From contig JAFKIY010000006.1 in the NCBI GenBank assembly GCA_017306245.1, positions 1 through 64,000 on the forward strand: DNA of 64,000 bases, written 5' to 3'. The DNA comes from Micrococcales bacterium (GTDB lineage Bacteria; Actinomycetota; Actinomycetes; Actinomycetales; Microbacteriaceae). The translations under genes were made by a program, and so were the position numbers. Below are positions 4,117-25,759 of this stretch, piece after piece; within the stretch, counting starts at the first letter, position 1; each line of letters starts with the position of its first letter. The notes under the pieces are model-generated. The model ran no database searches. It had not been told where the DNA came from and worked only from the letters and a program-made list of their open reading frames with translations.

Positions 4117-4761
4117 GTGCCCGTCGTCTCGTTTTCCGTAGCGCTGCGCGAGCGCACCTCGAGGACCCACGAGCACACGGAGGGCGCGACGTTCATGCAC
4201 GACCTCATGAGCGGCAAGGGCACGCGGAACGACTACATCGCCCTCGTCGCGCAGCATTTTTTCATGTACGAAGCCCTCGAATCGGTCGCCGAGACGATGG
4301 CCGACGATGAGGTGGCCGCCCGGTTCGTCACGCCCCAGCTCACCCGACTGCCCGCGCTTGTCGCCGACCTCGAGTTCCTTCTCGGGCCGGACTGGAAGGC
4401 TGACGTCTCCCCGCTGCCGTCCACGACCAGGTATGTCGACCGTATTCACGAAGTTTCAGGCTGGGCCGGCGGATTCATCGCCCACCACTACACGCGCTAC
4501 CTCGGCGACCTCTCCGGCGGCCAGCACATCTACAAGGTCATGCAGAAACGTTTCGGTTTCGACACCAACGGGGTCGGCTTCTACCTGTTCGACCAGATCG
4601 CGGATCCGAACGACTTCAAGAACACCTACCGCGAGCAGCTCGACGCCGCGCCGTGGGATGCGGTGGAGCGCGAGCGCGTCATCGACGAGGTCATCACCGC
4701 GTACCGCCTGAACACCGAGGTCTTCCACGACCTGAGCGCCGCGAAGTTCGCCGCTGCATAG
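4117..4761 (+). CDS. hmuO: Heme oxygenase (biliverdin-producing)
   Basis: 214 residues, the normal size of bacterial HmuO. It should open heme to biliverdin, CO and Fe(II) in the cytosol. The proximal heme ligand is H18 in RTHEHTEGATFM, equivalent to the H of AHEKAE in Corynebacterium HmuO. The distal helix carries the diagnostic YLGDLSGGQ (glycine hinge over the heme), and the GFDTNGVGFYLFDQIAD region is also typical. The start is a GTG. The iron box just upstream indicates induction under iron starvation, as known for corynebacterial hmuO. Confidence 0.95.
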   Translation: MPVVSFSVALRERTSRTHEHTEGATFMHDLMSGKGTRNDYIALVAQHFFMYEALESVAETMADDEVAARFVTPQLTRLPALVADLEFLLGPDWKADVSPLPSTTRYVDRIHEVSGWAGGFIAHHYTRYLGDLSGGQHIYKVMQKRFGFDTNGVGFYLFDQIADPNDFKNTYREQLDAAPWDAVERERVIDEVITAYRLNTEVFHDLSAAKFAAA

Positions 4762-4777
4762 CTCCCCCAGGAGGTCA

Positions 4778-4850
4778 GCCCAGCAAAACCCCTGACCGCC
4801 CTGCCCAAGAATGCCCGCCGAACCCGGGGCAGTCAGGGCTTTTGCTGGGC
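4778..4850. repeat. Hairpin element, first of a mirrored pair (possible bidirectional terminator)
   Basis: Arms 4778-4796 and 4832-4850 are complementary at 18 of 19 positions, and each contains an A4/T4 run so that either strand reads A-tract, GC stem, loop, GC stem, T-tract. The 35-nt loop (4797-4831) matches the reverse complement of the loop in the next element at 30 of 35 positions. It lies between convergent genes, where a bidirectional terminator would be useful. Confidence 0.8.
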
Positions 4851-4879
4851 GCTGTCCTTCAGTCATCTCAGGCTTGCCC

Positions 4880-4970
4880 GGCGGGTCGGCCAGCGAAAAA
4901 TGCTGATGGCCCGGGGTTCGGTGGGCATCCTTGGGCAGGGCTATCAGCATTTTTCGCTGGCCGGCCCGCC
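4880..4970. repeat. Hairpin element, second and inverted copy
   Basis: Arms 4880-4907 and 4943-4970 are complementary at 27 of 28 positions; the inner 20 bp (4888-4907 with 4943-4962) are perfect and contain A5/T5. The loop 4908-4942 is also 35 nt and is the first element's loop in opposite orientation. The stem differs from the first copy in base identity but stays paired. The element ends 7 nt from the stop of the helicase gene. Confidence 0.8.
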
Positions 4971-4976
4971 GACCAC

Positions 4977-6266
4977 CTAGGACGCCTCGATACCAGGGAT
5001 CGGTGTCACGTGCATCATGAAGCGCTGCACGTTCTCGTCGACGATGACGTCGGAGGGCCGCAGCGGCCGCGTGAGGTAGAGCCCGTCGAGTTCGGTGATG
5101 CGGCTGAGCGCGACGTAGGTCTGCCCCGGCGCGAAGGAGCGCTGACCGAGATCCACGATCGCCCGATCGTACGTTTTGCCCTGCGATTTGTGGATTGTCA
5201 CGGCCCAGGCGAGTCGAAGGGGGAACTGGGTGAACTCGGCGACGATGTCACGGGTCAACTGTTTGGTGGCCGCCGAGTAGGCGTACTTGTACTTCTCCCA
5301 CACGGTCGGTTCCACTTCGTGCGTTTCGCCGTCGACTTCGACGAATACGGTGGAGGTGATTTTGCGCACCGTGCCGACGGTGCCGTTCACCCACCGCTGG
5401 TCGCCGTCGTTGCGCAGAAACATGACGCGTGCTCCGACTTTCAGTTCGAGCGTTTCGTCGGCCGGGAATGCGCGCCCGCCGAAGTCGCCGGTGACTTCCG
5501 CTTGTGCGGTGAGGGAGCGGCCCGGCAGTTTCGCGAGTTCGGTGGCGTTGATCCGGTTGACTGTGTCGTTGCGGGTGGCGAGGGTGATGGCGTCTTCGGT
5601 GGGCGCGGGGCGCGCTCCGACCTCGTTCAGGCGCGCGGCGATCTCTGCGGTCACCGTTCCGTGGCGCACGGCGGTGAGCATGGTTTTGAATTCTTCTTCG
5701 TGTTGCCGATGGATCATGGTGAGTTCGAAGATCCGCAGGTCGGTTTCGTCCCACACTTTGGCGTCGAAGAACCACATCGAACGGTACTGGTCTTCGAAGT
5801 AGGCGCGCTCGTCCGCGTCTCCCGGCACGGGTGCGAGCTGGTACGGGTCGCCGAACAGGACGACCTGCACCCCGCCGAACGCTTCCTGTTTGCGCTGTCT
5901 GGCCTGCCGCAGGCTGCGGTCCACCGCGTCGAGCAGGTCCGCGTTGACCATGGACACTTCGTCGATGACGAGGGTGTCGATCGTGTTCAGGAGTTTGCGC
6001 AATGCGGCGTTCTGTTCGATGTCGTGGTCGGCGATCACGCCGATCGGCAGCCGGAAGAGGGAGTGCAGTGTTTGCCCGCCGACGTTCAGGGCGGCGACGC
6101 CGGTCGGCGCGGCGATCACGAGTTGTTTGGACGTGTTCCACGAGAGGTGGTTCAGCAGCGTCGACTTTCCGGTTCCCGCGCGTCCGGTGACGAAAATGTT
6201 TTCCCGTGTGCTTTCGATGGTCGCAAAGACGGCGGCCTGCTCGCCGGAAAGCTCTTGCGCGCTCAC
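4977..6266 (-). CDS. PIF1-like DNA helicase / AAA ATPase
   Basis: 429 residues from the GTG at 6266, which has AAAGGA 5 nt upstream; an in-frame ATG at 6350 lacks a ribosome site. Walker A is GRAGTGKST (K34) and Walker B is LVIDEVSMV. The remaining SF1B motifs include FGDPYQLAPVPGD, MIHRQ, and the C-terminal TIHKSQGKTYDRAIVDL and TYVALSR, as in PIF1 and RecD-like helicases. The family unwinds 5'-3' and can clear G-quadruplexes or R-loops, a role inferred from relatives. Its 3' end abuts the hairpin pair. Confidence 0.88.
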   Translation of the reverse strand: MSAQELSGEQAAVFATIESTRENIFVTGRAGTGKSTLLNHLSWNTSKQLVIAAPTGVAALNVGGQTLHSLFRLPIGVIADHDIEQNAALRKLLNTIDTLVIDEVSMVNADLLDAVDRSLRQARQRKQEAFGGVQVVLFGDPYQLAPVPGDADERAYFEDQYRSMWFFDAKVWDETDLRIFELTMIHRQHEEEFKTMLTAVRHGTVTAEIAARLNEVGARPAPTEDAITLATRNDTVNRINATELAKLPGRSLTAQAEVTGDFGGRAFPADETLELKVGARVMFLRNDGDQRWVNGTVGTVRKITSTVFVEVDGETHEVEPTVWEKYKYAYSAATKQLTRDIVAEFTQFPLRLAWAVTIHKSQGKTYDRAIVDLGQRSFAPGQTYVALSRITELDGLYLTRPLRPSDVIVDENVQRFMMHVTPIPGIEAS

Positions 6267-6369
6267 GAAGGTCCTTTGCGTGTCGGATGCCGGCCCAGGC
6301 GGTGTTTGAGGAGTCCAATCTATCTTCCCCCACGCGCGCAGCACGTTCATTGCGCGCGGGGCCCCAGCC

Positions 6370-9389: not shown

Positions 9390-9410
9390 TGCTGCGGTGC
9401 CGGGTGCAAA

Positions 9411-9452
9411 GTCGACAGGGGTGCGGTGCCGAAGCACCACACCCCTGTCGAC
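9411..9452 (-). terminator. Hairpin terminator after hup
   Basis: Arms 9411-9429 and 9434-9452 pair at 18 of 19 positions around a CGAA tetraloop. The hairpin lies 15 nt past the hup stop codon. There is no long U-tract, as is common in actinobacterial terminators. Confidence 0.7.
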
Positions 9453-9466
9453 TACTGCTGAGTCGT

Positions 9467-25723: not shown

Positions 25724-25759
25724 AGCGGCACGGGCGGGTCGAAACCCGCCCGTGCCGCT
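25724..25759 (-). terminator. Terminator after rplI
   Basis: A perfect 16-bp stem (25724-25739 with 25744-25759) closes on a CGAA tetraloop 9 nt past the rplI stop. On the minus strand the stem is followed by TCTTTCT, a short pyrimidine tract. Confidence 0.8.

Follow-up and report, generated by a model that had tools for sequence, protein, structure and literature searches.

Two hairpins between convergent genes

A heme oxygenase gene and a gene for a PIF1-like helicase run toward each other in the window, by which we mean the whole stretch of 64,000 nucleotides that was analyzed, and two long hairpins in opposite orientation lie in the gap between them. The features are as follows.

4117–4761, + strand: left neighbor, heme oxygenase (open reading frame; Pfam PF01126, E = 1.6e-55)
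4778–4850, − strand: hairpin 1, class I, G-rich loop strand on −; arms 4778–4801 and 4827–4850
4802–4826, − strand: loop of hairpin 1, conserved 25 nt, CGGGTTCGGCGGGCATTCTTGGGCA, from the pattern search; the same loop occurs at many other loci
4851–4878, no strand: spacer of 28 nt between hairpins 1 and 2, from the sequence
4879–4971, + strand: hairpin 2, class I, G-rich loop strand on +; arms 4879–4912 and 4938–4971
4913–4937, + strand: loop of hairpin 2, conserved 25 nt, GGGGTTCGGTGGGCATCCTTGGGCA, from the pattern search
4977–6350, − strand: right neighbor, convergent PIF1-like helicase (open reading frame; Pfam PF05970, E = 9.8e-37)

Sixteen nucleotides separate the heme oxygenase stop codon from hairpin 1, and 5 nt separate hairpin 2 from the helicase stop codon. 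The arms of hairpin 1 are 24 bp long with 2 mismatches, and those of hairpin 2 are 34 bp long and fully paired, counting 2 G–T pairs. The covariance model matches in the window span 4784–4844 (−) for hairpin 1 and 4895–4955 (+) for hairpin 2. An earlier, sequence-only reading of this DNA had described two palindromes between convergent genes, with stems of 19 and 28 bp, loops of 35 nt, and a spacing of 29 nt. The palindromes and their position are real, and so are the stems, although the pairing extends further, to the 24- and 34-bp arms; the spacing is 28 nt. The true loop is 25 nt, since a 35-nt loop is the 25-nt loop plus the innermost five positions on each side, the count having ended at the first mismatch in hairpin 1 or at a G–T pair in hairpin 2. 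The statement that loop 2 equals the reverse complement of loop 1 at 30 of 35 positions is exact; in the 25-nt core, 22 of 25 positions are identical.

The folding energy of 4750–4985 is 7 sd lower than that of dinucleotide shuffles, and a 27-position loop pattern gives two matches in the window, compared with 0 expected from the shuffled window. Besides hairpins 1 and 2, the 64-kb window has two stems of 16 or more pairs, both with CGAA tetraloops, so the 25-nt loop is unusual here. The CGAA-tetraloop stems, at 9410–9453 and 25724–25759, resemble the ordinary terminators of this genome. Runs of T4 and T5 are present inside the arms of the two window hairpins, and such an inverted pair of elements between convergent genes may, as a side effect, contribute to transcription termination in both directions. 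PIF1 enzymes unwind G-rich structures. The presence of a PIF1-like helicase gene beside the hairpins is probably a coincidence, because it is not seen at other copies.

A hairpin family with a near-invariant loop

The class I loop, to which both window hairpins belong, is (G/C)GGGTTCGGYGGGCATYYWTGGGC(G/A), 25 nt, and a related class II loop is (C/G/A)GGTGTGGYGGGCGTYYAYGGGC(A/G), 24 nt. The whole element measures about 70–95 bp, with a median stem of about 29 bp. A 20-nt loop pattern finds seven class I copies in the genome of the window, and the covariance models find nine copies in total, two of them class II. When about 85,000 bacterial and archaeal species were scanned for the exact degenerate class I loop, with no stem required, 20 copies were found, in Microbacteriaceae only (Leifsonia, Salinibacterium, Rhodoglobus, Terrimesophilobacter, Planctomonas, Galbitalea, Lacisediminihabitans, and uncultured members), and all 20 cap a long stem. 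Three viral matches to a shorter loop pattern were seen, none with such a stem.

The first model, R1, was built from 32 hairpins, 31 of class I and one class II-like, for which a structure-blind aligner gave a gap-free alignment. With E ≤ 0.001, R1 has matches in 34 of 400 Microbacteriaceae genomes, and with E < 1e-6, in about 27 of the 400 sampled, from 12 genera. The copy number is 1–13 per carrier genome (0–13 across genomes). A second covariance model, made from 78 copies, gave no match outside Microbacteriaceae in 376 genomes sampled across the order. In Rfam 15, no family scores above the gathering threshold, and the sub-threshold matches are mostly to miRNA models, which any long hairpin would be expected to resemble. 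The loop sequences are absent from the papers searched except for one short match in an unrelated paper, and the literature search gave nothing relevant on such repeats in Microbacteriaceae. Apparently, this is an undescribed family of small dispersed DNA hairpins peculiar to Microbacteriaceae. The sequence-only reading had predicted that such structured elements, in which the loop is conserved while the stem drifts, form a family, mobile or bound by a protein or RNA, and had named the absence of further copies as its refutation. Copies occur in the same and in related genomes, with nine here and at least 12 genera represented, and they have the same loop and different stems. A phage or plasmid origin was rejected, as phage and plasmid records contain no similar DNA and viral contigs contain no hairpin copies.

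The loop hardly varies, either within a genus or between genera. In the alignment numbering, G8, G12–14, T17, G23, G24, and C25 are identical in 78 of 78 copies, and G9, C15, and G22 are the same in nearly all. The bases C15–G22 and R16–Y21 are paired in 96% of copies, giving a two-pair apical stem in which R16–Y21 occurs as A–T, G–C, or G–T. The bases at the ends of the loop combine mainly as G..G, C..A, and A..G, and rarely pair. Loop similarity is higher within a genome than between genomes; in genome G101, all 12 exact-pattern copies are TCGGTGGGCATCTATGGGC, including two with clearly different stems.

We also considered what else the loop sequence might represent. Four GG tracts, as for a G-quadruplex, are present in 77 of the 78 loops, but also in 47% of composition-matched shuffles, and ViennaRNA with quadruplexes allowed picks none; a quadruplex is not supported. 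Both ribC and Mrp use one frame for the loop, giving G-S/V-A/V-G-I/V-x-G. Conservation as a coded peptide was rejected, however, because four-fold degenerate sites are invariant, rocD uses another frame, and most copies are intergenic. An antisense partner RNA was likewise rejected: a scan of the same genome allowing up to 3 mismatches gave the hairpins and one weak hairpin-less match.

The locations of 81 distinct hairpins were classified with a simple composition-based gene finder. Thirty lie between convergent genes, 27 between co-directional genes, and 4 between divergent genes, while 16 are in genes and 4 are undetermined. Of the 61 classified intergenic copies, 57 are flanked on one or both sides by the 3′ end of a gene, at a median distance of 40 nt, and one copy directly follows rnpB. 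The in-gene copies occupy tails and linkers. The ribC copy forms part of the C-tail of riboflavin synthase, directly upstream of the overlapping ribAB start; it is found in three genera (g1, g58, and, decayed, g30) and in none of the other species examined. The rocD copy lies in an N-terminal extension; the gene, interpreted as rocD, encodes a class III aminotransferase. A copy at the rocD start is present in several genera. Other copies are in a linker of an Mrp antiporter-like subunit and, in genome G006, in a linker of dnaX. Hairpins of this size are tolerated inside core genes such as those for riboflavin synthase and the Mrp antiporter subunit.

Stem turnover, gain and loss, and loop inversion

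Of the stem, only the pairing is preserved; the sequence is replaced over time. In the 78-copy alignment A3, 96.9% of stem cells are paired, a value that is somewhat inflated because having a stem was one of the grounds on which copies were picked and because this alignment was fitted to the model; the clean case for pairing is the 20 unselected copies of the scan of about 85,000 species. Both-sided changes occur at 18 of 18 tested stem pairs in the 78 copies, for which the covariation score is 1.155, compared with 0.226 for shuffled and ≤0.202 for slid controls. The small number of G–U pairs (52 of 1404 stem cells) suggests that both strands, that is, the DNA, matter.

Compensatory change in the stems, which the sequence-only reading had proposed from the two window hairpins, is seen at orthologous sites. 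In 17 orthologous pairs, there are 36 two-sided changes of stem pairs, of which 32 are still paired, versus 21 one-sided changes. The arms have changed by 11.4% and the loop by 4.1%, so that the loop rate is about a third, and the loop changes are mostly at its degenerate positions. An excess of double over single changes is unexpected of step-by-step compensation but fits template switching between the arms, which homogenizes the arms of inverted repeats and inverts the spacer (PMC8604942) and can maintain hairpins (PMC8794818). From these substitution patterns, we infer that template switching probably operates at the stems.

Copies come and go between related species. Some relatives in the same genus are without a hairpin at the ribC, rnpB, luxR, and heme oxygenase sites. 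The gap between heme oxygenase and helicase, where conservation of the loop had been anticipated, is empty in G005; a pair of hairpins occupies it only in this genome and in the nearest relative, G006, in which one of the two is broken. In genus g12, the Mrp linker is empty in nine species, and three carry compensated versions of one hairpin. The loop can also be inverted at a fixed site, as it is at ribC and ackA in G005, where the arms are homologous. At the sites compared in relatives, the outer boundaries have decayed, and no empty site could be matched cleanly to a filled one with precise ends. The family has yielded no transposase, no partner protein, no target-site duplication, and no case of precise excision.

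Genome G101 has about a dozen copies that lie among TCCCTTCGACAAGCTCAGGGA repeats, and the stems of most of these copies are nearly identical. Dense arrays of this short palindrome surround the hairpins (L090–L102) and look REP-like, with a constant loop. The same genome has two DUF222/HNH endonuclease genes that are 13E12-repeat-like (L110, 1506–3002, −; L111, 1476–2942, +), with hairpins on both sides in opposite orientation, 2.1–2.4 kb apart. We do not take DUF222/HNH as the partner of the hairpins, because such genes were not recognized beside the copies inspected in other genomes. The broken second hairpin of the heme oxygenase gap in G006 (L123, contig C182, about 1–1070) is interrupted in its loop by a different palindrome, GCTGGAGCTTAGAGCGGAGGGCC..., which also adjoins hairpin L209 in G308.

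Comparison with known repeats and possible explanations

The palindromic elements of Rickettsia (RPE) are reportedly due to Ogata et al. in 2000. They are dispersed palindromes of about 100 bp, located between genes and in frame in conserved genes and also in the RNase P RNA gene, and are thought to be selfish (PMC2229807). The Microbacteriaceae hairpins are likewise palindromic, lie between genes and in frame inside conserved genes (ribC, rocD, and Mrp; 16 of 81), and include a copy just after rnpB. However, they belong to another phylum, and RPE share sequence along the element, whereas in the present family the arms at different loci are unrelated and the loop is the only common part. The REP elements of the GTAG/CGTC families, associated with RAYT transposases, are also small palindromes (PMC3733652), and the present hairpins resemble them in this, in their enrichment at gene ends, in their sporadic occurrence, and in their variable copy number. 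REP elements have conserved stems, short loops, and terminal tags, whereas here the stem is free and the loop is 24–25 nt. GTAG/CGTC tags are near both ends in 3 of 78 copies (4%, versus 8% by chance), and the stems differ between loci, as the both-sided changes at all 18 pairs indicate, with the exception of G101. Like MITEs, the hairpins are inverted-repeat, noncoding, and presumably non-autonomous elements, but MITEs conserve their terminal inverted repeats, and here the repeats are the variable part. Since they differ from REP elements in tags and stem, from MITEs in terminal repeats, and from RPE in their arms, and since neither Rfam above its threshold nor the literature searched provides a related match, we regard them as dispersed palindromic repeats in which the pattern of conservation is reversed. 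In known small bacterial repeats, it is the inverted repeats or the end tags that are conserved; in the Microbacteriaceae hairpins, it is the loop alone.

The explanation that we favor, with evenly balanced confidence, is a REP/RPE-like dispersed hairpin in which the loop is kept by a trans-acting factor and the stem is renewed by template switching. The element would be a non-autonomous passenger, mobile or formerly mobile, because it is sporadic and variable in copy number, is absent at orthologous sites of relatives, and is amplified in near-identical form in one genome. A putative trans-acting partner, perhaps a transposase or recombinase or an RNA-binding or DNA-binding protein, would read the loop once the folded stem displays it, and this recognition would account for the conservation of the loop. 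That the loop but not the stem is conserved points to a partner that reads the loop on any stem. As only about 7% of the sampled Microbacteriaceae are carriers, the partner would not be a housekeeping factor common to all members of the family. Template switching between the arms during replication would keep the stem perfect and gradually replace its sequence. A more specific proposal, which we consider rather doubtful, is that the loop is the recognition site of a putative new Microbacteriaceae enzyme that moves or inverts a minimal hairpin, the stem being copied from neighboring DNA, either at the outset or as a renewal. If true, this would be a mobile element that conserves only 24–25 nt of loop and for which the inverted repeats are disposable. 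For the recurrence at the same site in several genera (ribC and rocD), an old, functionally conserved element is another possible reading.

A rival explanation is that the hairpins are functional 3′-end RNA elements, either bidirectional terminators or mRNA stabilizers, with a loop that binds a lineage-specific protein or RNA and stems that drift while their pairing is selected. The constraint on the loop, the proximity of 57 of 61 classified intergenic copies to gene 3′ ends (median 40 nt), the 30 copies between convergent genes, and the copy directly 3′ of rnpB are in favor of this. We nevertheless think it fairly unlikely. The 16 of 81 copies within genes and the inversion of the loop orientation between species argue against the simple bidirectional terminator to which the hairpins had been likened, and double changes exceed single ones in the stems. 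Furthermore, a canonical terminator belonging to groEL itself precedes the family hairpin there, and no more than 9 of the 78 copies have a T4 run, which rules out termination as the shared role. A consensus terminator scan of 4600–5100 found no terminator-like site, although its 8-nt loop limit would miss such hairpins. It is still less probable, indeed close to negligible, that these are ordinary intrinsic terminators that are alike by chance. The convergent genes and the fact that each window hairpin combines a stable GC-rich stem with A/T runs would suit such terminators, but the other strong stems of the window have tetraloops, and the same loop is found at unrelated loci in many genomes, where the chance expectation is zero or near-zero. 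This recurrence of the loop refutes the chance resemblance and upholds the earlier view that the hairpins are more than plain terminators.

Alternatively, the stem could be made at insertion, if the loop entered along with a copy, in inverted orientation, of about 25 nt of the target beside it; each stem would then record its target. At dnaX, G006 has arm, loop, and inverted arm, and the genome of the window has one arm only, in ordinary coding DNA. At groEL, the genome of the window is filled and G006 has one arm, and at rocD, the 5′ arm in G032 matches the sequence flanking the hairpin in G131. However, the single arms at dnaX and groEL may be either the pre-insertion state or deletion remnants, and in G003 this groEL site is occupied by a class II hairpin. 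The class II stems are weakly alike by eye, and the G101 copies share a stem. Neither arm is present at the empty ribC, rnpB, luxR, and heme oxygenase sites of the same genus or at the empty Mrp linker of the nine g12 species. Because most empty sites show neither arm, we keep this only as a rival, and an improbable one.

The renewal of the stem by template switching, as in the explanation that we favor, has precedents in hairpins maintained by this mutational process (PMC8604942, PMC8794818) and in the coding palindromes of Nematomorpha (PMC6649704). The likeness is in the perfect arms obtained by correlated double changes, the inversion of the spacer, and the toleration of palindromes in coding DNA. 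Those papers cover the process or palindromes in particular genes, whereas here there is a dispersed family with one conserved loop. The family offers many independent natural cases for the upkeep of perfect hairpins, in which selection for pairing can be set against template switching with loop inversion as a marker.

A perfect 22-bp hairpin with a different 20-nt loop, ACTATGAGTCCTCGAATAAC, is found in the luxR/murB gap of G004 (L148), at the site orthologous to a hairpin site in the genome of the window. It is possibly a member of another loop family.
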